Shown in pieces: positions 3,282 to 58,547 of a stretch of DNA of 64,000 bases. The notes below the pieces were generated by a model that did not search any database, was not told where the DNA came from, and saw nothing but the letters and a program-made list of their open reading frames with translations. Both the position numbers and the translations under genes were made by a program. The stretch comes from Steroidobacteraceae bacterium. Lineage in GTDB: Bacteria > Pseudomonadota > Gammaproteobacteria > Steroidobacterales > Steroidobacteraceae. Within the stretch, counting starts at the first letter, position 1. The number at the start of each line of letters is the position of its first letter. Location of the stretch: the NCBI GenBank assembly GCA_019187495.1, contig JABAQN010000021.1, positions 1 through 64,000 on the forward strand, given 5' to 3'.

Positions 3282-4872
3282 GCCGCGCTCCCGCCAGCGG
3301 CAGGCGCAACACGAAGCGCGCGCCCTCGCGGGAGCCTGCCGCGTCTGCCCCGCTGTAGTCGAGTTCCCCGCCCTGCGCGCGCAGCAGCGAGCGGCTGATC
3401 GCGAGTCCGAGCCCCATGCCGCCGGGTTTGGTCGTGACGAAGGGCTCGAACACGCGCCCCGCGACGTCGGTGGCGACGCCCGGGCCGGAATCGGCGATCG
3501 CCAGGCGCACGCTGTCGCCCTGGCGTTCGGCCGAGATCTCGATGCGCCGGATCGCGCTGCCGGCGACCACGATCGCGTCGATCGCGTTGGCGACGAGGTT
3601 GTGGAGCACGATCTCGAGCTGCGTGCGGTCGGCCGCGACCGGCGGCAGTTCCGGCGCCACATCACAGGCGAGCAGCACGCCGGTGCGCCGCAGGCGCTCC
3701 TGGAACGCCGCGATCACGTTCTGGCACAGCTCGGCGAGCGACAGCGGCGCGCATGTTGCCTGCCCGGTGCTGTAGAAGTCGCGCAAGCGGCGCAGCACCG
3801 ACGATGCGCGGATCGCCTCGCTCGCGGCCTTGCCGAGCGTCTCGGGCAACCGGGCGTCGTGTGCCTCTCCGGGCGTCGCGAGGATCTCCGCGGCGCGCAG
3901 GTACGAGACGAGTGCGGTGATCGGCTGGTTGAGCTCGTGCGTCAGCGCGGAGGCCATTTCACCCGCGGTCGCAAAGCGCATCGCCCGCGCGAGCGCCTCG
4001 TCGCGTTCGCGCAGTTGCGCCTGCGCACGCTGGCGTTCGCTCACGGTCGCGCCGAGGATCAGCGCGGTGAGGTTGAGCGTGAGCATCAGGAACTGCAGGT
4101 CGAAGAGCGGCGCGGCGTTGACATCCTGCACCATGAAGGCGAGCCCGACCTGGGTCGCGAGCGCGCCGACCACGGCGCCGACCACGCCCCAGCGCAGCGC
4201 GATCCAGATCATCGGCAGGAACAGCGGATAGAAGAATCGCAGCGCCTGGTCGGCGAGCACCACGAAGATCATCCACATCGTGAAGCCGAGCACCGCAAGT
4301 TGCAGCAGCGCCTCGCGCCTTCGCGCGCGCAGCGCGGCGAGCCCCTTGCGCCACGATGGCGCCCACATCAGCAGCGGCGTCAGCGTCAGCACGCCGTTGA
4401 AGTCGCCGACCCAGTAGCGCGCGACGCCACCGAGCGCGACGTTCTCGGGCAACGCGCCCATCGCGAGCATGATCGCGATGAAGCCGGCGCCGACGAGCAA
4501 CGTGGCGCCGAGGCAGGCGCCGACGAAGCGTGCCGCGTCGGCCGGCCGCGGCACGAGTGCCGCCGGACCCCGGCGGCGCAGGAACACCGCGAGCACCGTG
4601 TAGGCGATCGCGATCCATATCGACGTTGCGATCGCCGCGATGCTTCCCGCAGGCACGTCGCGCACCACAACTTCCGACAGCAGCGCCGCGAGCGCGACGG
4701 GAAGCGCGCCGCGCGGCCCCTGCCAGATGAGGTAGGCGAGGGAGACGCCGGTCTGCGGGTTCCATGGCGTGATGCCGAGTTGCAGTGCCGGCTGCAGGTA
4801 GCCGAGCCAGTCGACGAGGATGTATGCGGCGATGAAGATCGCGGCGCGAAGGAGAAAGCCAGCGCCGGGCAT
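3274..4872 (-). CDS. MASE1-domain sensor histidine kinase
   Basis: Inner-membrane sensor kinase of 532 aa. The N-terminal half is a multi-span MASE1-like sensory region (at least eight hydrophobic segments, including the typical WNPQTGVSLAYLIWQGPRGA). A short coiled coil leads to the dimerisation/phosphotransfer helix with the H-box TAGEMASALTHELNQPITAL, then an HATPase domain with N-box LHNLVANAIDAI, G1 box ADSGPGV and GLGLAISRSL. The HELNQP type is that of FixL/DctB-like kinases. It forms a pair with the overlapping FixJ-like regulator. The ATG at 4872 starts right before the first membrane helix; an in-frame GTG at 5031 would add 53 unconserved residues and is less likely. The signal sensed is unknown: there is no PAS/heme domain as in true FixL. 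Confidence 0.88.
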   Translation of the reverse strand: MPGAGFLLRAAIFIAAYILVDWLGYLQPALQLGITPWNPQTGVSLAYLIWQGPRGALPVALAALLSEVVVRDVPAGSIAAIATSIWIAIAYTVLAVFLRRRGPAALVPRPADAARFVGACLGATLLVGAGFIAIMLAMGALPENVALGGVARYWVGDFNGVLTLTPLLMWAPSWRKGLAALRARRREALLQLAVLGFTMWMIFVVLADQALRFFYPLFLPMIWIALRWGVVGAVVGALATQVGLAFMVQDVNAAPLFDLQFLMLTLNLTALILGATVSERQRAQAQLRERDEALARAMRFATAGEMASALTHELNQPITALVSYLRAAEILATPGEAHDARLPETLGKAASEAIRASSVLRRLRDFYSTGQATCAPLSLAELCQNVIAAFQERLRRTGVLLACDVAPELPPVAADRTQLEIVLHNLVANAIDAIVVAGSAIRRIEISAERQGDSVRLAIADSGPGVATDVAGRVFEPFVTTKPGGMGLGLAISRSLLRAQGGELDYSGADAAGSREGARFVLRLPLAGARRE

Positions 4873-5031: not shown

Positions 5032-5568
5032 TCAGGGCACCGCCAGGGCCTCGGCCCGACGCGCCGCTTCCTGCGCCTCGACATTGCGGCCGAGCGCGCG
5101 CAGGGCATCGGCGATCAGTTGCCACGCCGCGGATTGTTCGCGCGGCGCGCCGGCGGCGAGCGCGAGCGCGCGCCGGCCCATGTTCTGCGCCTGCAGCGCA
5201 TCGCCGCTCGCGAGTCGCGTCCGGCCCATTTCGATCCACACGAGCGGATTGTCCGGTTCGATGCGCAATGCGCGTTCGAGCGTGGCGGCCGCCGCGACGA
5301 AGTCCCCCTGGGCGGTGGCGCTGCGCGCCTGCGTGACGAGCGCGCTGGTCGCTGCGCTCAGCCGGTACGACCTGGGGGCGGGTGCGGGGGTCGGCATCGA
5401 GGGCGTCGTCGCGGGGGCGCCCGGCGATTGCGGTGGGGCCGCGCCGGGTTCTGTCGGCACGGGCGCAGGTGCGCCGGGAGCCGGCGTCGGCTGGTACGGC
5501 GGCGTCACGCATGCGGCGAGCGCGAGCGCCAGCATCGCGGGGAGCAGGGGGGCGGCGCGACGGCACAT
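5032..5568 (-). CDS. TPR lipoprotein, probable LpoP-like activator of PBP1b
   Basis: Lipoprotein of 178 aa. The signal peptide ends in LALAAC (acylated Cys about residue 19). A Pro/Ala-rich linker of about 45 residues follows, then about 100 residues of helical repeats that read as tetratricopeptide repeats (ARSATAQGDFVAAAATLERA, then RIEPDNPLVWIEMGRTRLAS). Its start overlaps the mrcB stop (TGATG), so it is translated with PBP1b. In Pseudomonas a TPR lipoprotein, LpoP, is the outer-membrane activator of PBP1b; the shared architecture (lipobox, proline-rich spacer, TPR) and the operon position argue for the same role here. That role is inference. The call as an exported TPR lipoprotein is direct. 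Confidence 0.8.
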   Translation of the reverse strand: MCRRAAPLLPAMLALALAACVTPPYQPTPAPGAPAPVPTEPGAAPPQSPGAPATTPSMPTPAPAPRSYRLSAATSALVTQARSATAQGDFVAAAATLERALRIEPDNPLVWIEMGRTRLASGDALQAQNMGRRALALAAGAPREQSAAWQLIADALRALGRNVEAQEAARRAEALAVP

Positions 5569-7856
5569 CAGCGGATGATGCCACGGAGCCAGTCGGCGAT
5601 GCCGGACGGCGGTGCGCAGCCGGCCATGTAGGGTGTCGGCGTGCCGCGCGGGACCGCGACGATCACTTCATCCTGCGAGCAGCCGGTGGTGACACGCAGT
5701 CCGGAGGCGTAGTCGATCGCCATGTCCTCGAGCGATTCGGGCATCGGCGGTTGCCACGAAGTGGTGTCGAGCGCCGACATGATCTTCTGCCACACGATCA
5801 GCGAGCCGCTCGAGCCGGTGACACCCGTCGGGCGGTTGTCGTCGTAGCCGATCCACACGACGGCGAGGTGGCTGCCCGAGAAGCCCGCGAACCAGCCATC
5901 ACGCAGGTCGGACGAACTGCCGGTCTTGCCGGCGACAATGAGCCCGCGCGGCAGGCGGGCGGCGGCGGCGCGGCCGGTGCCACGCGCGATCACGTAGGTC
6001 AGCATCCGGTCGACCTGGTACACGGCGTCCGGCGCCGCCACCGGCGCGATCTTCACCGGGTAGGCGCCGATGCGCTCCCCATGCTCATTGACCACCGCGC
6101 GCACCGCCCGCAGCGGCACATGGAAGCCGCCGTTCGCGAGGCCGTTGTAGAGTTGCGCCACATCGATCGGCGGCAGGTCGACGGCGCCCAGCAGCAACGA
6201 CGGCAGCGGCGCCGGCGCGGTCTCGAGGCCGAAGCGCGTGAACATCGCCGCGACTTTCGGCAATCCGGCATCGAGTCCGAGGTGCACGGTCGCGAGGTTC
6301 AGCGATTCGCTGAGCGCGCGCACCATCGAGACGGGCCCGTTCGCGTTCCGCGAGTAATTCTGCGGGCGCCACACCTTGTTCCGCGCGAGCGGCACCTCGA
6401 TCGGCGTGTCGTCGAGCACGCTCGTGGCATTCCAGCGGCCCGACTCGATCGCCGCCAGATAAACGAACGGCTTGACGAGCGAACCGATTGCCCGCGGGCT
6501 CGCGAGCGCGCGATTCAGGCCGTCGAAATTCACGTTGCGCCCGCCGACCATCGCGATCACTTCGCCGCTTTGCGGCAGCGTCACGATCGCCGCGCCTTCG
6601 AGCCCCGCCTTGCCGGCGGGTGGCGGGTGCGTCCGGTCGAGTCGCGCGAGCTCTCCTTCGACCGCCTGCTCCGCCGCGAGCTGCGCGCGCGGATCGAAGC
6701 TCGTGAACACGCTGAGGCCGGCTTCGGTGAGGTCGGCCTCCTTGTAATCGCGCCGCAACGTGCGCCGCACGAAATCGAGGTAAGCGGGGAAATAGCCGCC
6801 CGACGGACGCGCGGCGATGCCGAGCGGAGCCCTCATCGCGGCCGCGGCTGCCCCGGTGTCCACGATCTTCTGCTGCGCGAGCAGGCGCAGCACCAGGTCG
6901 CGCCGCTTGCGGGCCCGGTCGGGATAGCGGCGCGGATCGTAGTAGGGCGGGCCGCGCACGATCGCGACGAGCAGCGCGAGCTCCGGCAGGTCGAGTTCGT
7001 CGAGCGGCTTCGCGAACCAGAACTGGCTCGCGAGGCCGAAGCCGTGGATCGCCCGGTCGCCCTGCTGGCCGAGATAGATCTCGTTGATGTACGCGGTCAT
7101 CAGGTCGCGCTTGTCGTAGCGCGCCTCGAGCGCGAGCGCCATCATCGCTTCCTCGAGCTTGCGGGCGAGCGTGCGGCGGCCGTCGAGGAAATAGCTCTTG
7201 ACGAGCTGCTGCGTCAGCGTGCTGCCGCCCTGTTCGACCCGACCCGCGCGCAGGTTCACCCACATCGCGCGCGCGATCGCCTCGAGATCGACACCGTGGT
7301 GGGTGGCGAACTTGCGGTCCTCGACGGCCTTGATCGCGGCGGGCAGGAGCGGCGGTACCTCGTCGGGCGTCAGCACGATCCGGTCCTCGCCATGGATCGG
7401 GAAGATGCTGCCGATCAGCAGCGGATCGAGCCGGAAGACCGGAATCGCGGCACCGTCCGCGGCGCGCAGGCCCGTGATGGCGCCGCGTTCGATCGTCACG
7501 GCGATGATCTGCGCCGCGCGCTCCTCGTCCGCGAAGCGCGCGGCACGCACCGCGATCTCGAAGCGCCCGCGGCGGCGCCGGTAGCTGCCCGGGCGCGAAA
7601 GTTCCGGCGTTTCCCGATACCGCAACCGTTCGAGCTCGGCGAGCAGGTCGTCCGGCGAGAACGGCAACCCGACGTAGAGCTCGAGTGGCGCGGCGTAGAC
7701 CTTGGCGGGGAGCGTCCAGCGACGCCCCTCGAACTGCCGCGCCACCTCGCGATCGTAGTGGATGAACGCCACCGTGAACGCGAGCGCCGCCGCCGCGGCG
7801 AGTGCGGCGACGCCGATCGCGCTGCGGCGCAGGATCCTCTTCGTGCGGGCCTTCAT
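5568..7856 (-). CDS. mrcB: Bifunctional penicillin-binding protein 1B (glycosyltransferase/transpeptidase)
   Basis: Class A PBP of 762 aa that polymerises and cross-links peptidoglycan in the periplasm. There is one N-terminal membrane anchor (about residues 12-32) after a basic cytoplasmic tail, then the UB2H-like region found in PBP1b. The GT51 glycosyltransferase domain has the catalytic Glu179 in AVEDRKFATHHGVD and the motif EQGGSTLTQQLVK. The transpeptidase domain has Ser459-x-x-Lys in AIGSLVKPF, SxN in SESLNLAT, and KTG in VAGKTGSSSDLRDGWFAGF. All key residues are present. The first 60 residues and the UB2H-like segment mark it as the 1B rather than 1A type. It is co-translated with the LpoP-like lipoprotein downstream. 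Confidence 0.95.
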   Translation of the reverse strand: MKARTKRILRRSAIGVAALAAAAALAFTVAFIHYDREVARQFEGRRWTLPAKVYAAPLELYVGLPFSPDDLLAELERLRYRETPELSRPGSYRRRRGRFEIAVRAARFADEERAAQIIAVTIERGAITGLRAADGAAIPVFRLDPLLIGSIFPIHGEDRIVLTPDEVPPLLPAAIKAVEDRKFATHHGVDLEAIARAMWVNLRAGRVEQGGSTLTQQLVKSYFLDGRRTLARKLEEAMMALALEARYDKRDLMTAYINEIYLGQQGDRAIHGFGLASQFWFAKPLDELDLPELALLVAIVRGPPYYDPRRYPDRARKRRDLVLRLLAQQKIVDTGAAAAAMRAPLGIAARPSGGYFPAYLDFVRRTLRRDYKEADLTEAGLSVFTSFDPRAQLAAEQAVEGELARLDRTHPPPAGKAGLEGAAIVTLPQSGEVIAMVGGRNVNFDGLNRALASPRAIGSLVKPFVYLAAIESGRWNATSVLDDTPIEVPLARNKVWRPQNYSRNANGPVSMVRALSESLNLATVHLGLDAGLPKVAAMFTRFGLETAPAPLPSLLLGAVDLPPIDVAQLYNGLANGGFHVPLRAVRAVVNEHGERIGAYPVKIAPVAAPDAVYQVDRMLTYVIARGTGRAAAARLPRGLIVAGKTGSSSDLRDGWFAGFSGSHLAVVWIGYDDNRPTGVTGSSGSLIVWQKIMSALDTTSWQPPMPESLEDMAIDYASGLRVTTGCSQDEVIVAVPRGTPTPYMAGCAPPSGIADWLRGIIR

Positions 7857-7865
7857 TGCCCCATC

Positions 7866-10085
7866 TTAGTGAAAGCCGGTTCGCACGTACGAGCCGAACG
7901 TCAGGTAGAACGAGCGATCACCCGTGTCGGCGTAGCCGAAACCGAAGCGCAGCGGCCCGATCGGCAGCGGTATGCCGACGAACACGCTGCCCGCCTTGAC
8001 GAGATCCCGGCCCGAGATGGCGTCGAAGCTGTCCCAGACGTTGCCTGCCTCCGCGCTGGCGCCGACGTAGAGCGGCATGCGGACCAGCGATTCGCCGCCG
8101 CCGAGACTCCTGTAGTACATCAGGCGCGCGAATACCATCTGGCTGCCGAGCAGTTCGTCCTCGCCGAATCCGGAAAGGTACGTGAGGCCGCCGAGGTTCG
8201 CGTCGGTGCTGAAGGCGTCGAGGGCATCGGTCGAGACCGATGCGCGCGTGCCGATCGAAACGGTGTTGCGCCCGAAGCTCATCGCCTGGTCCCACGACAG
8301 GCGTGCGAGATCGCCGCGCTCGTGCGCACCGAGGCCGTCGCCGAACCAGCCGTAGCTCGCTTCGATGCGCCCGCCCCGGGTCGGGAATGCAACGCTGTCG
8401 AGCGAATCGAACAGGTACTCGAGGCGCACGCCGGCGAGATCGGCGCGCCGGCTGTCGGGCAGCGAGGGCGCGCCGACGAGCCGCTTGCCCCGATCGTGCT
8501 GGCGCGACGCGACGACCGCGATCCTCGTGTGCTCGCCGAAGTCGCGCCCGAAGCGCAGTTCGCCGCCGCCGGTGTCGACCCGATAGCGCGCAATCTCGTC
8601 GCCGCCGACGCGCAGCGGCTGGTTGACGGCGAGGTACTGCAGCTGCGGTGCGATGAACCAGCGGCCGAGGGTGCCGAACGGCGCGTAGAACCCGGAGGTG
8701 AGGCCGCTCTCGCGGCCGAGCTGCAGCAGGTTGCGCCATTCCGCCCCGGTCGCACTCAGGCCCGTCATCCGCAGTTCGGCGTTCAGCTGGTAGTCGTCGC
8801 GTCCCTTGAAGTCGTCCTCGAACTGCAGCCCGAAGCGCAGGTAGTTCGGACCCCAGGCCTTGTCGACCGGTCGCACGATGAGCCCGTATTCGCCGTCCCG
8901 CTCCTCGAGCCGGTAATCGATGCGCTGGTAGGTGCCGGCGCCGAAGGCGCGCGCAATCTGGTTCGACACCTCGTCGAAGTTGAAGAGCTTGTCTTTCTGG
9001 GTGAACAACCGGTCGCGCACCAGCCCGGCCGTGCGGCTCGCGTCGCTGCGCACGTCGACGAAGTCGATCCGCGGGTTGCCGATTTCGTGGCGCGCCTGTG
9101 CGCTGCGCAGGGCCGCATACTCCGCCGGATCGATCGCGTAGCGCTGCAGCGCCGCGTACGCCGCCGTCGCCGCGGATTCGCCGGCGCGCACGGCATCGTC
9201 GACCTTGCCGAAGTCGAGCGAGGCGACGCCGGGCATGTCGGGCTTCAGGACCACGTCATTCGCCGTGAGCCCGGCGAGGACCCGGGTGCTTTCGCGATCG
9301 ACGAGGCCCGAGAGAACCTGTTTCAGGACCGAGACCGGGGAATTGAGCTGATCCGCGGCGAGCAGCGGTTCGCTGACATTGACGACGATCAGGCGATCGG
9401 CACCCATGGCGTGCGCGACGTCGACCGGTATGTTGTTGGTGACCATGCCGTCGACGAGCAGGCGGCCCTCGTAGCGCACCGGCGCGAACGCACCGGGAAT
9501 GGAGGCGCTGGCGAGTACCGCGATGGTCAGGTCGCCCTCGCCGAACACCACTTCCCGGGCCTTGCCGACATCGGTCGCGACGCAGCGGAACGGGATCGGC
9601 AGCGAATCGAAGTCGATACGTGCCTTCGTCTGCACGAGCAGGCGGCGCAGCACGAGATTGAGCTTCTGGCCGATCACGATGCTCGGCGGCACCTTGATTC
9701 CGGAGCGCCCGATGCCGACCTCGTAGGGGATGAACTGCGCGCTGTCGAGCTCCTTCTCGCGCATGGGCATCGCGTCACGCGAGGCGCCGTCGCGGAACAC
9801 GTCGCCCCAGTCCATGTCGTCGAGGATCTTCTGGATTTCATCGACCGTGTAGCCGGACGCATACAGCGCGCCGATGATCGCGCCCATGCTGGTGCCGGCG
9901 ATGTAGTCGACCGGAATGTGCTGCCGCTCGAGTGCGCGCAGCACGCCGATGTGCGCCGCGCCGCGCGCACCGCCGCCGCCGAGCACGAGGCCGATCTTCT
10001 CGCGCGCCCCGGCGGGCGCGACGCAGGACAGGAGCGTGAGGGCGACGGCGGCCAGCAGCCGGCGCCAGGAGCTTCGATGCCGCAT
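7866..10085 (-). CDS. PlpD-type patatin phospholipase autotransporter (type Vd secretion)
   Basis: Outer-membrane protein of 739 aa. After a signal peptide (cleavage near VAPAGA, residue 27) comes a patatin lipase domain with the oxyanion loop GGGGARG, nucleophile Ser66 in GTSMG, and catalytic Asp212 in VDGMVTNN. A single POTRA-like segment (about residues 315-390, including FDEVSNQIARAFGAG) connects to a C-terminal BamA/Omp85-like beta-barrel ending in a terminal aromatic-rich strand (FGSYVRTGFH). The length is close to PlpD of Pseudomonas aeruginosa, the prototype. The likely activity is phospholipase A. A Shine-Dalgarno GAGAGGTGA precedes the ATG. It is 9 bp upstream of the mrcB start and may share its transcript. 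Confidence 0.92.
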   Translation of the reverse strand: MRHRSSWRRLLAAVALTLLSCVAPAGAREKIGLVLGGGGARGAAHIGVLRALERQHIPVDYIAGTSMGAIIGALYASGYTVDEIQKILDDMDWGDVFRDGASRDAMPMREKELDSAQFIPYEVGIGRSGIKVPPSIVIGQKLNLVLRRLLVQTKARIDFDSLPIPFRCVATDVGKAREVVFGEGDLTIAVLASASIPGAFAPVRYEGRLLVDGMVTNNIPVDVAHAMGADRLIVVNVSEPLLAADQLNSPVSVLKQVLSGLVDRESTRVLAGLTANDVVLKPDMPGVASLDFGKVDDAVRAGESAATAAYAALQRYAIDPAEYAALRSAQARHEIGNPRIDFVDVRSDASRTAGLVRDRLFTQKDKLFNFDEVSNQIARAFGAGTYQRIDYRLEERDGEYGLIVRPVDKAWGPNYLRFGLQFEDDFKGRDDYQLNAELRMTGLSATGAEWRNLLQLGRESGLTSGFYAPFGTLGRWFIAPQLQYLAVNQPLRVGGDEIARYRVDTGGGELRFGRDFGEHTRIAVVASRQHDRGKRLVGAPSLPDSRRADLAGVRLEYLFDSLDSVAFPTRGGRIEASYGWFGDGLGAHERGDLARLSWDQAMSFGRNTVSIGTRASVSTDALDAFSTDANLGGLTYLSGFGEDELLGSQMVFARLMYYRSLGGGESLVRMPLYVGASAEAGNVWDSFDAISGRDLVKAGSVFVGIPLPIGPLRFGFGYADTGDRSFYLTFGSYVRTGFH

Positions 10086-10172
10086 GGTTCACCTCTCGGG
10101 CAAGCGTAGCGTGAAGTACACTCAGCGTGCAGGCTCGCAAACAACTCGCGATGCGCTGACGGGAGGGACGGC

Positions 10173-10379
10173 ATGGGCGATGCGCGCAACGAACAACTCG
10201 AAGTGAAGATGGCGCACCTCGAACGCGCGCTGCAGGAGCTGAGCGACGAGCTCGCGCGGCAGCAACGCGAACTGGGCGAACTGCGGGCGTGGAACCGGCA
10301 GCTCGCGCAGCAGCTCGCCTCGGCACAGGCGGATGGCGCGGCTTCCGCTACCGCGATCGAGATTCCGCCGCACTACTGA
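10173..10379 (+). CDS. slyX: SlyX family protein
   Basis: Small coiled-coil protein of 68 aa: almost the whole chain is Leu/Glu/Gln heptads (MAHLERALQELSDELARQQ) and it ends in the family hallmark PPHY. A strong GGGAGG lies 7 bp before the ATG. SlyX homologues are widespread in gammaproteobacteria but their biochemical role is not established. The last 32 bp overlap the 3' end of the convergent GST gene. Confidence 0.9.
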   Translation: MGDARNEQLEVKMAHLERALQELSDELARQQRELGELRAWNRQLAQQLASAQADGAASATAIEIPPHY

Positions 10380-10986
10380 GGCGCGCGTCGATTTCGCGCA
10401 CCCGCGCGACCGACGGGCGCGCCGCCCAGCGCCCGACATATCCCTTGAAGGGTTCCTCGGCGGGCAGCAGGCCGAATGAAATCATCCAGGTGAGCGCGGT
10501 GCCCCACAGGACATCGGCCGCCGTGAAGCGCTCCCCGAGTATCCATGGCCCGCGCGCGAGTTGGCCGCGCAACGTCGCGATAGTGGTATCGATATCGCCG
10601 TAAGGCATCGTCGATGCGCGGCCCGGCTCGCGCTTCAGGGCGCGATCGACCATCGCGGGCTCGAACGACGAGCCGTAGAAGACGATCCAGCGCAGGTACG
10701 GGCCGCGCAGCGGATCGCCGATCGAAGGCGCGAGGCCGGCCTGCGGCCAGAGGTCGGCCAGGTAGATGAATACCGCGCCCTGTTCGGTGACGACCGCGTC
10801 ACCGTGCCTGACGGAGGGCACCTTGCCCATCGGATTCACCGCGAGATAGGGCGCCTTGCGCTGCTCCCCGGCATTCATGTCGAGGACCTGCAGCTCGTAG
10901 GGCATGCCGAGTTCCTCGAGCAGCGCGAGCGCGCCGCTCGAACGCGTGTTCGGGGAATGAAAGAGCGTGACTGTTGCTGGCATCAT
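10348..10986 (-). CDS. Glutathione S-transferase family protein
   Basis: About 212 aa. The N-terminal thioredoxin-like domain starts TVTLFHSPNTRSSGALALLEE, with the cis-Pro region MGKVPSV and the glutathione-contact motif TEQGAVFIYL; the C-terminal helical domain contains the N-capping motif GERFTAADVL. Two adjacent ATG codons (10986, 10983) are possible: the first overlaps the oxidase stop as ATGA, the second has the better distance from AGGGAG. It is coupled to the upstream flavin oxidase gene. Substrate is unknown. Confidence 0.9.
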   Translation of the reverse strand: MMPATVTLFHSPNTRSSGALALLEELGMPYELQVLDMNAGEQRKAPYLAVNPMGKVPSVRHGDAVVTEQGAVFIYLADLWPQAGLAPSIGDPLRGPYLRWIVFYGSSFEPAMVDRALKREPGRASTMPYGDIDTTIATLRGQLARGPWILGERFTAADVLWGTALTWMISFGLLPAEEPFKGYVGRWAARPSVARVREIDARLSSAAESRSR

Positions 10987-12875
10987 GATCTCCCTGGCGC
11001 GGCGAGTTCCTGCACCGCGCGATGCGCCTCGTCGATCGCCGCGTGCGCGTAGGCCGCCCACGCGGAATCCGAGTTCGCGAACGCGATGGCGCCGATCCGG
11101 GCGCGGGCGATCTCATTCGGCGGCGCACCGGCGCGCGGCTTGTCATGGAGCGGGTTGTCGCCGCCCGAATAGCCATGGCCCCACCGGTTCACGGTGATGG
11201 CGGCGATGTCGCGGTCGGCGTCGAAGCCGCCGGGACCGGCGATGCGCGTGAGCTCGTCGCGCGCTTCGTTCTCGAAGGTATCGAACGGCATTGCGAGCAG
11301 CTGCGCGCGTGCCGCGCGCAACGTGTCGCGCGGATCGACCCCGGGCGTGAGCGGGACGGTCGGCACGTGCACGAGGTGCAGCACCATCGGTTCGTCGGGC
11401 GAGCGCGGGCAGCGGTAGTCACCGAGGCTCACCGGGTAGTCGAGCTTGATGCGCGAATGGAAGCCGACGGCGTTCGTGACCTCGTGCACGCCGCGGGCGA
11501 CCCAGGGGCGCCAGTTGCGCACGACGACCTTGACGTACACCAGCGGGGATTTCACGTTGAGCGCGAGCGCGTCCTTCTGCCGTGCGGTGAGTTCCGGCAG
11601 CAGGTAGGGATCCATCGAGTGGTAGCACGCCATGATGGCGTGGCGCGAGTGCGCGGCGCGCACGGCGCCGTCGCGCACGTAGAGCGTGTCGACGCCTTCC
11701 CCGCCGCGATTGCGTACCTCAACCGCGGTGCTGCGCAGGCGCAGCCGGACCAGCGCGCCCTCGGCATCGAGGCGCGAATAGTCGAACGGCGCGAGCACGA
11801 TGTCTTCCATGCCGCGACCGGGTGCGACGCCCGCAACCAGCGAGCGCACGAGCAGGCGCGCGATCGACGCGTTGCCGTCCGGGAAGTGATAAATGTAGGG
11901 GTCCTCCATCTCGGCCTCGTCGGTTCCCGCCCCGAGGCCGAGGCCGGCAAAGCCGGGGTAGCCGGTCTCGCGCGCCCAGCCGGCCGGCACCGCATCGATG
12001 CCTGCCGCGAAGAAATCGTGCGAGCGGTCCTGGAAAGTGTCCGCGACCTCTGCGCCGAATCCCCGGACCTTCGTGATCCAGTCGCGGTAGCTCGTGTGCT
12101 CGAGCAAGGCCTCCTTCTGCGCGCGCGATCTGCCCGCGAGTGGATCGCGCTTCGACGTGTAGAGCTCGATGAGCTGCCGCTTCGCGCTGCCCGACACCGG
12201 ATAGTCGGCGATGAACGCCGCGATCGGCCGGGCATTCATCCGGTCCGGCGGAATGTCGTCGGCCACCATGCGCAGCGGATCGCCGGTGACGAGTCGATCG
12301 ACACCGAAGGTTTCGCGCTTGAAGAGGATGCCGCGCGACAGGCCGAGGCCCGGGTAGAGCGAGCGGTCGAAGGCGGTCTCGAAGCGGTCGATGTCGACGC
12401 CGAGTGCGCCGAGGAGCCCGAGCGCTTCGGCGCTGTAGAGGGAATGCGGCGACTGCAGGGATTCGCTGCCGCCGTAGGAGATCAGCTTGCGGCCGTCGAT
12501 CGTGAACTCGTTGCGTTGCGCATGGCCGCCGAAATCGTCGTTGGCCTCGAGCAGCAGGATGCGGGCATTCGGCTTCTCGCGACGATAAAACCAGGCCGCC
12601 GCGAGACCGCTGATGCCGGCACCGACGACGACCAGATCGTAGCGCTCGTCCGCCGCGGCACGGGCGGCATCGAAGCGCCTGCCGTCACGCAGCGCATGTG
12701 CCACATCGAAGCTGCCAGGGGCCGAACCCCGAAAACCGTGGCCCGCGGGCGGGTAGTCCGCGGCGGCGGCATTCGCGGCGCGCAGCCAGGCTGCGGGCGA
12801 GAGCCCTGCCGCAATCGCGAGCGCCGTGCCGTTCAGGAAATCGCGGCGGGAGACATCGCCTCGCATGCGCGCCAT
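10983..12875 (-). CDS. Tat-exported FAD-dependent amine-oxidase-like oxidoreductase
   Basis: About 630 aa. The N-terminus has a twin-arginine signal (SRRDFLNGTALAIAAGL) followed by an Ala-rich cleavage region, so the folded flavoprotein should be exported to the periplasm. The Rossmann FAD-binding motif is YDLVVVGAGISGLAAAWFYR, followed by the acidic ribose-binding residue in LLLEANDDFGGHAQ. The C-terminal half fits the flavin amine oxidase superfamily and ends with an FAD-contact segment (IGAIAFANSDSAW). The first ATG of the twin-Arg peptide (12875) is used; there is no clear Shine-Dalgarno sequence. It is translationally coupled to a GST gene, suggesting a joint detoxification or oxidation role (inference). 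The substrate cannot be named. Confidence 0.85.
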   Translation of the reverse strand: MARMRGDVSRRDFLNGTALAIAAGLSPAAWLRAANAAAADYPPAGHGFRGSAPGSFDVAHALRDGRRFDAARAAADERYDLVVVGAGISGLAAAWFYRREKPNARILLLEANDDFGGHAQRNEFTIDGRKLISYGGSESLQSPHSLYSAEALGLLGALGVDIDRFETAFDRSLYPGLGLSRGILFKRETFGVDRLVTGDPLRMVADDIPPDRMNARPIAAFIADYPVSGSAKRQLIELYTSKRDPLAGRSRAQKEALLEHTSYRDWITKVRGFGAEVADTFQDRSHDFFAAGIDAVPAGWARETGYPGFAGLGLGAGTDEAEMEDPYIYHFPDGNASIARLLVRSLVAGVAPGRGMEDIVLAPFDYSRLDAEGALVRLRLRSTAVEVRNRGGEGVDTLYVRDGAVRAAHSRHAIMACYHSMDPYLLPELTARQKDALALNVKSPLVYVKVVVRNWRPWVARGVHEVTNAVGFHSRIKLDYPVSLGDYRCPRSPDEPMVLHLVHVPTVPLTPGVDPRDTLRAARAQLLAMPFDTFENEARDELTRIAGPGGFDADRDIAAITVNRWGHGYSGGDNPLHDKPRAGAPPNEIARARIGAIAFANSDSAWAAYAHAAIDEAHRAVQELAAPGRS

Positions 12876-13006
12876 TGTAGTACGGAGGGATCGAGCCGGG
12901 TGGAATCGCAGTGATAGCATTTCCGCCCATGAGCCCGCCCACGGGGTCGAGGGGCACATGGCGAGCCTCAGGCCGGCAGGCTGCTGGCCGCAAAGGATAC
13001 ATCACG

Positions 13007-13057
13007 ATGAATTTCGATACCGCGAGTGACACGATCGCCATTGGCAAGGCGGCATGA
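13007..13057 (+). CDS. Possible 16-residue leader peptide coupled to the next gene
   Basis: A short frame, MNFDTASDTIAIGKAA, preceded by AAAGGA at a proper distance. Its TGA stop overlaps the ATG of the following membrane protein gene (ATGA at 13054-13057), the usual layout of a translationally coupled leader. No homologue is recognised; it may be only a chance frame. Confidence 0.3.
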   Translation: MNFDTASDTIAIGKAA

Positions 13058-13359
13058 CGCGAAAAGTGGAACCAGGCCTGCTCGAGGGCTTGTTCGAACT
13101 CCTGAGCCGGCTGCCCTGGTGGTTGGGTATGGCGGCGGCGGTTGTCTCGTTCGTCCTTCTGCACGAGATCGCGACTCAACCGCACGGCGCGGAGGCCCAC
13201 ATGGGTGACATCGGCTCCACGGTTGCGAGCGAGGTGTGGCGCACCGCGGCCGCATTTGGCCAGGTCATCCTGCCGTTGCTGTTCGGCGCCGCAGCGACTA
13301 TTTCGGCGATTCGCGCGCGCCAGCGGAAGCGGAATCCGGACCAGCGGCACGAGAAGTGA
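13054..13359 (+). CDS. Two-helix membrane protein resembling the N-terminus of membrane-linked Mrr-type nucleases
   Basis: 101 aa with two hydrophobic helices (about residues 20-40 and 65-85), a PWW motif in LSRLPWWLGMAAAVVSFVLL, and a basic C-terminus (RARQRKRNPDQRHEK). This matches, from memory of the family, the N-terminal anchor of a group of proteobacterial 'restriction endonuclease' proteins in which an Mrr catalytic domain follows the second helix. Here the frame stops where that domain would begin, and the next gene comes in from the other side. It is either a truncated relic or a stand-alone anchor protein. The last 62 bp overlap the convergent YciI-like gene. Confidence 0.6.
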   Translation: MTRKVEPGLLEGLFELLSRLPWWLGMAAAVVSFVLLHEIATQPHGAEAHMGDIGSTVASEVWRTAAAFGQVILPLLFGAAATISAIRARQRKRNPDQRHEK

Positions 13360-13705
13360 CATCGCCCGCCTGCCAGGTCGTGCCGCCGATCCAGGTTCCG
13401 GCGGCCGGATAGAACGGCAGGACTTCGACCGACGCCCAGACCCCGGCCTCGTGGTACGGGTCCATTCGCGCGAGCTCGCGGGCACGGCTGGCGCTCTGCG
13501 TTCGAAAGACGAACAGGCTGCCGATCGCCTGCCGGCCCTCCTCGTCGAACAGCGGCCCTGCGATCCGCACTTCATCGATGACGCGTTCGATGTGTGCGAG
13601 GTGCGCCGGTGTCGCGGCCTTGCGTTTCCCGGCGGCGTCTGGCGCATCGCGGCACACCACGACGTAGCAGGCCGTCGGAAATTTCTCGTGGATCGGTGTC
13701 GGCAT
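13298..13705 (-). CDS. YciI-like protein
   Basis: 135 aa with the YCII fold features: an N-terminal strand YVVVCRDAPDA, the central His/acidic region PAHLAHIERVIDEVRIAGPL, and FRTQSASRARELARMDPYHEAGVW with the conserved DP(Y/F) of the family. The GGAGGAAATGC before the ATG is a strong ribosome binding site. YciI-like proteins are small, possibly enzymatic proteins of uncertain function. The C-terminal 20 or so residues are encoded in DNA shared with the convergent membrane protein gene and are probably not conserved. The start is divergent from the toxin-antitoxin operon. Confidence 0.8.
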   Translation of the reverse strand: MPTPIHEKFPTACYVVVCRDAPDAAGKRKAATPAHLAHIERVIDEVRIAGPLFDEEGRQAIGSLFVFRTQSASRARELARMDPYHEAGVWASVEVLPFYPAAGTWIGGTTWQAGDVTSRAAGPDSASAGARESPK

Positions 13706-13732
13706 GCATTTCCTCCCTCGGGTTTCGGGGTA

Positions 13733-13752
13733 TTATAACGAGTGTTATAACG
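13733..13752. promoter_or_regulatory. Tandem TTATAACG repeats at the AbrB/Doc promoter
   Basis: TTATAACG occurs at 13733-13740 and again at 13745-13752, a 12-bp spacing, and each sits in a near-palindrome (GTTATAAC at 13744-13751 is perfect). They lie 18-37 bp before the antitoxin start in a conspicuously AT-rich island, as expected for an autoregulatory operator that overlaps the -10 region of a toxin-antitoxin operon. Confidence 0.5.
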
Positions 13753-13769
13753 CCGGCCGGAGTTCTTCC

Positions 13770-13994
13770 ATGAAGCTGAAAATCACCGCGATCGGCAACT
13801 CGGCCGGCGTCATCCTGCCGAAGGAACTGCTCGCGCGCCTGCGCGTCGGCAAGGGCGATGTGCTGTACGCGGTCGAGGTGCAGGACGGCATCAAGATCAC
13901 GCCCTACGATCCGAAATTCGCGGCGCAGATGGAGGTGGTGGAGCAGGTGATGCGTGATCGGCGTGAGCTGTTGCGCAAACTCTCGGAGAGCTAG
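13770..13994 (+). CDS. AbrB/MazE/SpoVT-family antitoxin
   Basis: 74 aa. The swapped-hairpin DNA-binding domain is obvious: KITAIGNSAGVILPKELLARLRVGKGD, with the GNSxGV(I/V)LP signature of AbrB/MazE antitoxins. The short helical C-terminus (EQVMRDRRELLRKLSES) would contact the toxin. The ATG at 13770 is preceded by CCGGAG. Its stop is 2 bp before the Doc toxin gene, forming a two-gene operon with an AT-rich repeated operator upstream. It should neutralise Doc and repress the operon (family knowledge). Confidence 0.88.
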   Translation: MKLKITAIGNSAGVILPKELLARLRVGKGDVLYAVEVQDGIKITPYDPKFAAQMEVVEQVMRDRRELLRKLSES

Positions 13995-52318: not shown

Positions 52319-53536
52319 GTGACGCCGGCGACGCTACCGCAGGAAGGTGAGTCGCTCGTCGCCCGCACGTTGCGGACGGGTTTCCCGCGGTTGCGCTTCC
52401 CCGCCGAACTCGAGCGCGAGTTCGTCACCGAATACCGTGCCTCGCGCCGCCACCTCGTGCGCATCGGCGTCTGCCTCGCGCTCGCGACCATCATCGGGCT
52501 CGCGATCCTCGATCGTTGGCTGCTCGGCGCCGATGCGCACGGTGTGCCGGACGCGATCCGCTTCGGCGTGCACATCCCGCTCGTCTCGATCGCCATCGTG
52601 CTCACGACGCAGCGCCTCTATCGCTGGTACTGGCCGTTCGTGCATTTGTTCGCGCCCCTCTACGGGCTCGCGACGGTGCTGCTCGCGGTCCATGCGGAAG
52701 GCACGCTGACCTCGTACATCTACGCGCGGCTCATCATCGCGATCTTCTTTTTCTACTTCATGCTCGGGCTGTCGTTCACGGCGGCGCTGCGCACCAACAT
52801 CGTGACGCTCGCCGGTTTCGTGATCGCCGCCGTCGCGACCGGGCTGTCGGCGCAATCGGCGATCTACCTGTCGTTCCTGTTCGTCTGCGCGAACCTCTAC
52901 GCGGGCGCCGGCTGCTACTGGCTCGAGCGCGCCAATCGCGTCGCGTTCCTCGACCGCAGGCTGCTGAACGAAGTGGCGACCCACGACGGCCTCACGGGGC
53001 TCCTGAACCGCTCGGCGCTCGAGGGCGGGATCCACCGCATCTGGCAGCAGGCGATCCGCGACGGCGTCGTCGTCACGGTCGTGATGATCGATATCGACCA
53101 CTTCAAGGCCTACAACGACCGCTACGGCCACCAGGCCGGGGATGCGTGCCTGCGGGATGTCGCGCGCGCGATCCGCCGCGCGGCGGGCTCGCGCCCGAGC
53201 GACTGTGTCGCGCGTTACGGCGGCGAGGAAATGATCGCGGTGCTGCCCGGCGCGGACCGGGCGGGTGGCGAGCAGGTGGCGCGCGCCATGCTCGCCGAAG
53301 TGGCGGCGCTCGCGATTTCGCATGATCGCTCGCTGACGCAGCCGCATGTCACGGTGAGCATCGGCGTCGCCACGATGGTGCCGCAGCGGGGCTCCTCGCA
53401 CGATCGCGTAGTCAGGATCGCCGACCGCGCGCTCTACATCGCGAAAGAGCAGGGGCGCAATCGCCACGCCGTGCTCGATGAAAGCGACTTCGGCGAGGCG
53501 ACTTCGGTGCTGACCGCACGAGAGCTCAGAGCTTAG
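52319..53536 (+). CDS. Membrane diguanylate cyclase (GGDEF)
   Basis: 405 aa. Residues about 45-200 contain six membrane helices without a recognisable named sensor domain. A GGDEF domain follows (about 225-390): DGLTGLLNRSALEGG, MIDIDHFKAYNDRYGHQAGD, and the active-site RYGGEEMIAVLPG (GGEEM, catalytically competent form). The expected product is cyclic di-GMP. The inhibitory RxxD five residues before the A-site is not seen (AGSRPSDCVARYGGEE), so product inhibition at this site may be absent. It starts at GTG 52319. Its last codons are part of an inverted repeat that bounds the restriction island. Confidence 0.9.
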   Translation: MTPATLPQEGESLVARTLRTGFPRLRFPAELEREFVTEYRASRRHLVRIGVCLALATIIGLAILDRWLLGADAHGVPDAIRFGVHIPLVSIAIVLTTQRLYRWYWPFVHLFAPLYGLATVLLAVHAEGTLTSYIYARLIIAIFFFYFMLGLSFTAALRTNIVTLAGFVIAAVATGLSAQSAIYLSFLFVCANLYAGAGCYWLERANRVAFLDRRLLNEVATHDGLTGLLNRSALEGGIHRIWQQAIRDGVVVTVVMIDIDHFKAYNDRYGHQAGDACLRDVARAIRRAAGSRPSDCVARYGGEEMIAVLPGADRAGGEQVARAMLAEVAALAISHDRSLTQPHVTVSIGVATMVPQRGSSHDRVVRIADRALYIAKEQGRNRHAVLDESDFGEATSVLTARELRA

Positions 53537-53544
53537 AGCCAGAG
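53522..53544 (+). repeat. Left copy of inverted repeat flanking the restriction island
   Basis: A 23-bp sequence beginning GAGCTCAGAGC, lying over the last codons of the GGDEF gene. Its reverse complement matches 58525-58547 at 20 of 23 positions. Internally it is made of degenerate 7-bp steps of the type AGAGCTC/AGAGCTT/AGAGCC, as in short interspersed repeats. Confidence 0.6.
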
Positions 53545-57300: not shown

Positions 57301-57475
57301 AGCCGCGATTGGTGAGGTTCTCGCGCAGCAGCGCCGTCTCGATGGGACGGTTGCCCTCGCGGGTGCTCCAGTCGCCGAGATAGCGATACCCGAGGCAATC
57401 CGGCTGCGCCGTGTCGGTGAACAGCGCGACGACGCGGTTCTGCGTGCGGCGTTCGGAGCGGGGTCGCGCCGTCAT
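54350..57475 (-). CDS. hsdR: Type I restriction endonuclease subunit R
   Basis: 1041 aa, complete. The N-terminal nuclease has the PD-(D/E)xK core: Asp140 in [11 protein letters not shown] and Glu154-x-Lys156 in AVIELKRSS. The SF2 motor follows with Walker A TQGSGKS (287-293), the DECH box (390-393) and motif [11 protein letters not shown]; the helicase second half has [20 protein letters not shown] and QAICRTNRL. The C-terminal helical region that contacts HsdM is present. All catalytic residues are intact, yet hsdM is broken and hsdS is missing nearby, so it cannot form a standard R2M2S complex from this locus alone. Confidence 0.95.
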
Positions 57476-58071
57476 GGCGTCCTGCCGGCCGCCTGCCGGA
57501 TGGCCAGACGTTGACGGCCGGCAGAGGTGATCCGGTACGTCTGCAGGCGGCTGGCGGGTTTCTCGGGAATCGTCATTTCGATCAGACCTTGTTCCAGCGC
57601 CGGACGCAGGTAGCTGGCTCGAAACGTCGGACGATGCTTCAAACCCAGGCGCTGCTGTATCACCGAAGGAGCAAGCGGTTGGCGATCCAGAAGCAGGAGC
57701 ACCTGATCGACTGGGTCGGTGACTGGGTCGGTGACTGGGTCGGTGACTGGGTCGGTGCCTTCAGGGCCGACCCGGCCGCGGATGATGTCGAGGTATCCCT
57801 TCGCAAAGGTGAAGTTGATCCACAAGCCCGTTTCCTCGTGCGTCAGCATAGGTTCCGGTACGCCAGCCGCGCGGCACGCGATCATCATGCGCTCGATGCC
57901 ACGCCCCCAGGCCTCGATGTCGCCCGCGCGGAAAAACACGTTCGCCAGGTCGGGGTTGAACGGATGCGAGGCGTGCTTCTGCTTCAGCTTCGCCACCGTC
58001 CACAAGGGCGGCAACTGTCCGGGGTTCCAGATCATCAGCTTGTCGTCATAGACGCTGATCTGCACGGGCAC
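57472..58071 (-). pseudogene. 3' part of a RecG/AlbA-type ATP-binding transcription regulator gene, joined to hsdM by a deletion
   Basis: The frame starts abruptly at the hsdM junction (GTG 58071) with PVQISVYDDKLMIWNPGQLP and AWGRGIERMMIACRAAGVPE, which are the C-terminal ATPase-like region of the RecG-C/AlbA_2 group of regulators; such proteins normally have 250-300 residues before this point. After a run of TDPV repeats comes a winged-helix end ([20 protein letters not shown]). The AlbA-2 domain and most of the ATP-binding domain are missing. These genes are frequently found in type I restriction loci, so the full gene once stood between hsdM/hsdS and hsdR. The 3' end overlaps the hsdR start (ATGA). 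Confidence 0.72.
57709..57756 (-). repeat. Four 12-bp tandem repeats coding TDPV
   Basis: Four perfect copies of GACTGGGTCGGT on the plus strand, which encode the TDPV blocks on the minus strand. Twelve base pairs is a multiple of three, so copy-number changes alter linker length, not frame. Confidence 0.92.
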
Positions 58072-58424
58072 AGGCGATCCACCATCGCCTGACCTTCCCC
58101 GAGCTTGTTCGGATCGTTGAAGTCGGGGAAGTCGCTGCGGGCGAGGCGCGCGTTGGCGTCGATCAGCGGCTGGATGATCTGCGTGTTGATCTTGTCGCCG
58201 ATGTCGGGCTTGCCCTTGAGCGCGACCATGTCGGCGAAGCTCGCTCCCCTGGGAATCGCGACCGGCGGGGCGAAGGCATCGCTCGCGCCGTATTTGTCGC
58301 TGATGTACTTGATGAACAGCATGAACAGGACGTAGTCCTTGTACTGGCTGGCATCCATGCCGCCGCGCAGTTCATCGCACGAGGCCCAGAGGGAGGAATA
58401 GAGGTCGGATTTCTTGAGAGCCAT
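58035..58424 (-). pseudogene. hsdM: hsdM (type I methyltransferase), truncated after the N-terminal domain
   Basis: The first 118 codons are a normal HsdM N-terminal domain: SDLYSSLWASCDELRGGMDA, YVLFMLFIKYISDKYG, and DPNKLGEGQAMVDRL. Full HsdM is about 500 or more residues with the SAM-binding and NPPY motifs, all absent. After Leu118 the sequence passes directly into the coding DNA of the next remnant in a different frame, giving 11 junk residues (CPCRSASMTTS) and a stop at 58035. A deletion has therefore removed most of hsdM, all of hsdS (if it was here) and the beginning of the next gene. AGGACTCC before the ATG and the start are intact. Confidence 0.85.
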
Positions 58425-58524: not shown

Positions 58525-58547
58525 CTCCGGCTCCAGGCTCTGAGCTC
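58525..58547 (-). repeat. Right copy of inverted repeat flanking the restriction island
   Basis: The 23-bp reverse-complement partner of 53522-53544 (20/23 identical), located in the non-coding space between hsdM and the isoaspartyl peptidase gene. The adjoining sequence to about 58500 is hairpin-rich (CCGGCCGGGG) and looks like a dispersed repeat rather than a gene. Confidence 0.6.

Follow-up and report, generated by a model that had tools for sequence, protein, structure and literature searches.

How does a genome come to carry an intact restriction gene of a type I restriction-modification (R-M) system, hsdR, beside a mere beginning of hsdM, and is such a gene harmful or inert? The question is raised by a locus in the window, i.e. 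the whole stretch of 64,000 nucleotides analyzed here (G000:C5:1-64000), which belongs to a metagenome bin with 80 contigs, a size of 3.57 Mb and a completeness of 91%. A preliminary description of this DNA held that a deletion fuses the beginning of hsdM with the 3' portion of an AlbA/RecG-like regulator gene and presumably removes hsdS, leaving HsdR as an orphan.

The hsdM and regulator remnants

The hsdM reading frame (58035-58424, minus strand) encodes 129 amino acids. Its residues 1-118 match Pfam HsdM_N (1.3e-12) and positions 1-116 of the 810 positions of the PADLOC profile MTase_I (8.9e-50), and tblastn also supports their assignment to HsdM, in agreement with the earlier reading of 118 normal codons; residues 119-129 are regulator sequence read out of frame (Table 1). 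Since the frame changes at the junction, it yields no fusion product here, and the idea of a new fused protein was rejected. The regulator frame (199 amino acids) matches HATPase_c_4 (1.1e-19) and Fic-like_C (1.5e-23); SLFN_AlbA_2 is absent among its profile matches and present in the intact homologue from locus L025. The bin has six N6_Mtase matches and four Methylase_S matches (the latter one on contig C67, two on C30 and one on C47), all of them outside the window contig, C5; thus, neither an HsdM with an N6-methylase domain nor an HsdS was found there by these profiles.

Table 1 Features of the locus in window coordinates.
Feature	Position	Strand	Evidence
hsdM remnant, codons 1-118, HsdM_N part only, methylase domain deleted	58071..58424	-	profile, tblastn and blastn matches
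hsdM ORF tail, out of frame in regulator DNA, to stop	58035..58070	-	ORF list
Deletion junction, 2-bp TG overlap common to both ends	58071..58072	-	blastn vs L025
Regulator 3' part, SLFN_AlbA_2/HATPase_c_4/Fic-like_C type (L025 homologue codons 277-486 of 486)	57472..58071	-	profiles, blastn
12-bp tandem repeat, 4.1 perfect copies, coding DPVT	57709..57757	-	regulator linker HATPase_c_4/Fic-like_C
hsdR, intact, 1041 aa	54350..57475	-	profiles, motifs
ygjP-like metallopeptidase, intact, 240 aa	53631..54353	-	profile, motif
Left arm, 23-nt imperfect (87%) inverted repeat at island edge	53522..53544	+	repeat scan
Right arm, 23-nt imperfect (87%) inverted repeat at island edge	58525..58547	-	repeat scan

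AlbA-type matches occur in 19 of 80 related hsdR loci. Several relatives carry GEVT, DPVT, DQVT or PPVT repeats in varying number in the linker before Fic-like_C; since the repeat number differs among relatives, linker length may vary through repeat slippage. A literature search on DPVT/GEVT repeat strings found none.

The deletion mapped onto an intact relative

Among 217 family genomes, both halves of the junction were strongly matched on one contig in one other genome only, namely on contig SCUD01000141.1 (G154:C184) of Gammaproteobacteria FW602_bin.2, a member of the same family, where the hsdM start is 93% identical at 5362-5715 and the regulator 84% identical at 9775-10027. The corresponding locus, L025, has the gene order hsdM (809 amino acids)-hsdS-SLFN_AlbA_2/HATPase_c_4/Fic-like_C protein (486 amino acids)-hsdR-ygjP. 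It resembles the window locus in its HsdR (91% amino acid identity), in its hsdM start and in the AlbA-type cargo directly upstream of hsdR, and differs in carrying full-length hsdM, hsdS and cargo genes, which in the window are deleted or partial.

In blastn, window positions 58426-58071 align with 4956-5311 of L025 (93%), 58072-57820 with 9371-9623 (84%) and 57589-53662 with 9887-13814 (86%). Relative to L025, the window thus lacks the DNA from 5311 to 9372, about 4,061 bp (~4.06 kb), i.e. hsdM from codon 119 on (85% of the gene), the whole of hsdS and regulator codons 1-276. The alignment breaks exactly at 58071, where the preliminary description had placed the switch into the AlbA/RecG-like gene in another frame, and the presence of hsdS between hsdM and the regulator in the relative bears out the presumed loss of this gene. 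This breakpoint pattern is far beyond chance. At the level of sequence, the comparison with an intact relative, which had been proposed as a check and maps both ends, confirms one clean deletion with its ends, its gene content and whole hsdR and ygjP genes.

The longest word common to the 400 bp around each deletion end in L025 is 9 bp, a length that makes both homologous recombination and an assembly join through k-mers unlikely. Phase-variable or programmed excision was rejected: the window ends share 2 bp, and those of a comparable locus in Comamonas (L079, see below) differ from them and have no clear shared bases.

State of hsdR and ygjP

The remaining two genes are whole, and the earlier statement that they are intact and correctly coupled holds: the overlaps of the regulator stop with the hsdR start and of the hsdR stop with the ygjP start both read ATGA. 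HsdR has HSDR_N, SWI2_SNF2 and T1R_D3-like domains (nuclease and SF2 motor both present), scores 455.7 bits with TIGR00348 (cut-off 284.55) and retains the PD..ELK nuclease motif from residue 139, GSGKS (Walker A) at 289 and DECH at 390. Its closest solved relatives are structures of EcoR124I HsdR (PDB 2w00 and others; for 2w00_A, E = 8.6e-40, best stretch residues 107-467), which is nevertheless distant from the window protein. EcoR124I HsdR belongs to a complete R-M system. The metallopeptidase matches PF01863 (2.1e-53), with HEMLH at residue 194. A promoter and terminator scan gave nothing above shuffled sequences.

The dN/dS of the window hsdR is 0.118 against L025 and 0.099-0.193 against L024, L027, L060, L028 and C47, and the numbers of unique changes (nonsynonymous/synonymous) are 25/74 in the window, 19/44 in L025, 17/75 in L024 and 20/67 in L027. 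Such an hsdR, with no sign of decay, fits either a recent deletion or continued use, and its undisturbed coding state could mean that the gene is still used. In the hsdM remnant, the unique changes (3/3 in the window, 0/1 in L025, 1/5 in L024, 1/5 in L027 and 1/7 in L060) would be at most a hint of relaxation and are too few to date the deletion.

Decay of a type I island as the probable explanation

We consider it likely that the locus is a decayed YgjP-type type I R-M island that suffered one illegitimate deletion and whose remnant HsdR is inert without HsdM2S; the process is ordinary gene decay. The original island would have had the order hsdM-hsdS-AlbA/RecG-like cargo-hsdR-ygjP, and a single deletion of ~4.06 kb with 2-bp microhomology would have joined hsdM codon 118 to cargo codon 277. 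Methylation and DNA recognition would thereby be lost at the locus, with HsdR and YgjP still encoded downstream of the hsdM start region. Type I HsdR acts in complex with HsdM2S, which it would need for placement on DNA. Because HsdR works in this complex, loss of HsdM together with HsdS is expected to leave a harmless remnant, and the deletion would be tolerated, except where HsdM and HsdS of a second system act in trans. In type II systems, by contrast, loss of the methylase alone is dangerous. The intact cutting subunit is thus probably harmless on its own; we infer that the remnant is inert, that the deletion is recent and that it has no consequences for expression. On this account, the window would offer a clean, mapped example of how a type I system, in contrast to type II, can lose methylation without harm.

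Other type I systems in the bin

The proposed search of the rest of the genome for hsdM and hsdS was run. Contig C47 carries a complete set of the same subfamily, hsdM (826 amino acids)-hsdS (418 amino acids from ATG)-hsdR-ygjP, with 91% (HsdM start) and 81% (HsdR) amino acid identity to the window proteins, and C30 and C67 carry other type I systems, whose HsdM proteins, where they align with the C47 HsdM, are 31% and 27% identical to it, respectively. C47 (loci L104, L157 and L160) also carries a second N6-methylase gene.

These data bear on the possibility that the window HsdR is still used in trans with HsdM2S from C47, the locus being a redundant R-subunit gene. The complete set of the same subfamily and the normal constraint on the window hsdR speak for such use, and complementation is one of the criteria that define type I families, according to the available part of PMC3874165. 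However, C47 has an intact hsdR of its own, and its place in the bin is uncertain. The tetranucleotide correlation with the window is 0.623 for the 12-kb right flank of C47, compared to 0.826-0.889 for eleven 12-kb pieces of the window, and an earlier composition measure gave 0.512 for its non-R-M DNA. Low values are also shown by the C30 flanks (0.628 for 4.5 kb and 0.477 for 2.5 kb), by the R-M island of the window (0.643) and by 5-kb window pieces (down to 0.692), so that composition alone cannot settle the membership of C47; island DNA can also look foreign, which gives its atypical composition an alternative reading. The last 5 kb of C47 had no strong match in six other genus genomes, with short weak ones in three (at most 46.4 bits), and the best match of an SDR-like protein (named by eye) encoded there reached 37.1 bits in 216 other family genomes; a further reading frame of C47 looks like a glycine-rich lipoprotein of a myxobacterial kind. 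Thus, C47 may be misbinned, and its belonging to the organism of the window is doubtful. We regard the use of the window HsdR in trans as unlikely. As to the earlier concern that an orphan HsdR would be harmless only if unable to bind DNA without HsdS or if HsdM and HsdS existed elsewhere, a full matching set is indeed present in the bin, but the doubt over C47 attaches to it as well.

Another reading is that the chromosome has the full operon and that the junction is an assembly artefact or reflects a strain mixture. The window is a contig of an 80-contig metagenome bin, so that a minority variant or a chimera could account for the junction, with the missing DNA perhaps on an unbinned contig; moreover, the hsdM starts of the window and C47 share a 49-bp exact word, which makes cross-assembly conceivable. 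The hsdM start of C47 (88%) is the sole other DNA match in the bin to either remnant, however, and since nothing on C47 matches the regulator remnant, the 49-bp word cannot explain the join of hsdM to the regulator; the exact C47 match that ends at the breakpoint is 9 bp long. So little shared sequence, 2 bp where the ends meet and no more than 9 bp between the surroundings of the L025 ends, argues against misassembly. Five of the bin's six N6_Mtase places (C30, C67, two on C47 and C65) were compared, and none proved to be a close hsdM lacking its start; the sixth, on C38, lies inside a frame of 1811 amino acids. An artefact therefore seems quite improbable.

Related loci and a second, seemingly independent deletion

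Contigs were scanned with HsdR, and the best 80 of 137 relatives were kept. Loci with less than 9 kb of upstream DNA and without a near-complete hsdM (upstream of hsdR, with 750 or more of the 826 residues matched) were set aside (21 of 80). Among the 59 judged loci from these best 80 of 137, 57 had a near-complete hsdM upstream, a proportion that leans high because a near-complete hsdM was counted whatever the upstream length. Two loci, L079 (Comamonas sp. BIGb0124) and L103 (Gloeomargaritales VI4D9), had 10 kb of upstream DNA without an hsdM match. The ygjP gene follows hsdR by 0-208 bp in 79 of the 80 loci, within 3 bp in 67 of these 79; in the 80th, L101, one base of DNA is left after hsdR. 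Given this constant adjacency, ygjP could encode a dedicated protease for HsdR control.

L079 has whole hsdR and ygjP genes and no hsdM or hsdS match below E = 0.07. Its reading frame at 9010-9981 is an in-frame fusion of 323 amino acids, in which the beginning of an integrase is followed by the C-terminal part of a YhcG protein: residues 1-61 agree in full with a segment found in L076 and L071 (Arm-DNA-bind_3, integrase type), and residues 63-323 match the C-part of YhcG from L076 at 96% identity. Projected onto L076, position 1869 is joined to 9194, a loss of ~7.3 kb; one base at the join is unassigned, and the two ends have no bases clearly in common. Like the window, L079 combines deletion of hsdM and hsdS, an upstream gene fused to the 3' part of the cargo, and an intact hsdR-ygjP pair, whereas its upstream partner is an integrase rather than hsdM, its cargo is of the YhcG/DUF1016 type and its fusion is in frame rather than out of frame. 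This is seemingly a second, independent deletion of the kind.

The only N6_Mtase match in the Comamonas genome covers 93 of 311 profile positions at 20.4 bits, just at the cut-off. The Comamonas hsdR is open, with a dN/dS of 0.067-0.128 against five relatives. Its unique changes (5/12, nonsynonymous/synonymous) would place its nonsynonymous share close to that of the nearest relative, L076 (4/12), and above those of the others (3/33, 4/16, 24/136 and 15/68), but these numbers are too small to decide. Judged from its gene content, L079 supports tolerance of HsdR without its partners, and the Comamonas parallel could serve as a test bed for whether the HsdR-YgjP pair acts without HsdM2S.

L103 has hsdS and hsdR, with no hsdM match within 10 kb upstream, and was not counted as a third case; N6_Mtase matches occur at other places of its genome. 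A transposase-like frame (named by eye) is present twice in this locus, at 3784-4776 and 8524-9516.

Repeated independent excision of hsdM and hsdS might also leave hsdR-ygjP as a self-standing module, either an R-subunit donor or a defence or regulatory unit of its own in which YgjP controls HsdR, a proposal that we consider very improbable. The stronger form, in which the module is selectively kept for its own function and removal of hsdM and hsdS is a recurrent adaptive step, is hardly credible: although both deletions end within the gene that directly precedes hsdR, sparing hsdR and ygjP, the two genes are adjacent almost throughout the collection and the Comamonas hsdR is open and constrained, there are two cases only, both of which may be too young for decay, and deletions that remove hsdR are invisible because the loci were gathered by hsdR, so that the collection shows hsdR-sparing deletions only.

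Relation to published systems

In literature on orphan HsdR, degraded type I systems, AlbA/RecG and YgjP, the arrangement appeared, among the matches listed (titles and abstract starts), only in PMC12255303. The available part of that paper describes the RRDM island of EPEC E2348/69, RptR-hsdM-hsdS-DarTG2-hsdR-M48, and states the HsdR2M2S1 complex. By gene order, the locus type of the window is like this island, hsdM-hsdS-[cargo]-hsdR-metallopeptidase, with the cargo site in the gap between hsdS and hsdR, an interval that the authors regard as a potential recombination hotspot; it differs in its AlbA_2/HATPase_c_4/Fic-like_C cargo and in the deletion of hsdM, hsdS and half of the cargo (PMC12255303, same part). 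Disruptions of this kind in type I systems are described as common in a published review. In view of the RRDM order and these common disruptions, the window locus is filed as a decayed member of a known arrangement. In group A streptococci, type I R-M has been lost in nature through the insertion of a phage, as reported in the available part of PMC8597746; there, too, a naturally inactivated type I system is tolerated, the cause being an insertion and not an hsdR-sparing deletion. PMC4231737 was rejected as a precedent for an orphan gene, the 'orphan HsdR' of its available part being subunits released from EcoKI, and YgjP is unmentioned in the available part of PMC12707154.

Boundaries of the island

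The island lies between a GGDEF gene and an isoaspartyl-peptidase gene. In four of the six other genus genomes (G001, G003, G004 and G006), a single contig carries both flanking genes, the matched stretches being 0.2-2.1 kb apart, and the matches at this site do not include the hsd island; the gaps of G001 and G004 contain other reading frames. The flanks are on two contigs in G005, and a close match to the GGDEF protein was not found in G002.

At its edges, the island has two copies, in inverted orientation, of a dispersed repeat of the GAGCTTA type. When no more than one mismatch was allowed, the core of this inverted repeat occurred at three places in the window genome (two of them the island arms), at three in G003 and at 21 in G004; the remaining four of the seven genomes had none, and a reversed control pattern had no match in the seven. 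In the window alone, with up to three mismatches, 8 of 100 shuffled sequences likewise attained two repeat matches. A transposon-borne island with terminal inverted repeats of its own was rejected, the repeat core also occurring elsewhere. Because the core is dispersed in other places, the edge repeat is more likely an intergenic repeat where the island landed.
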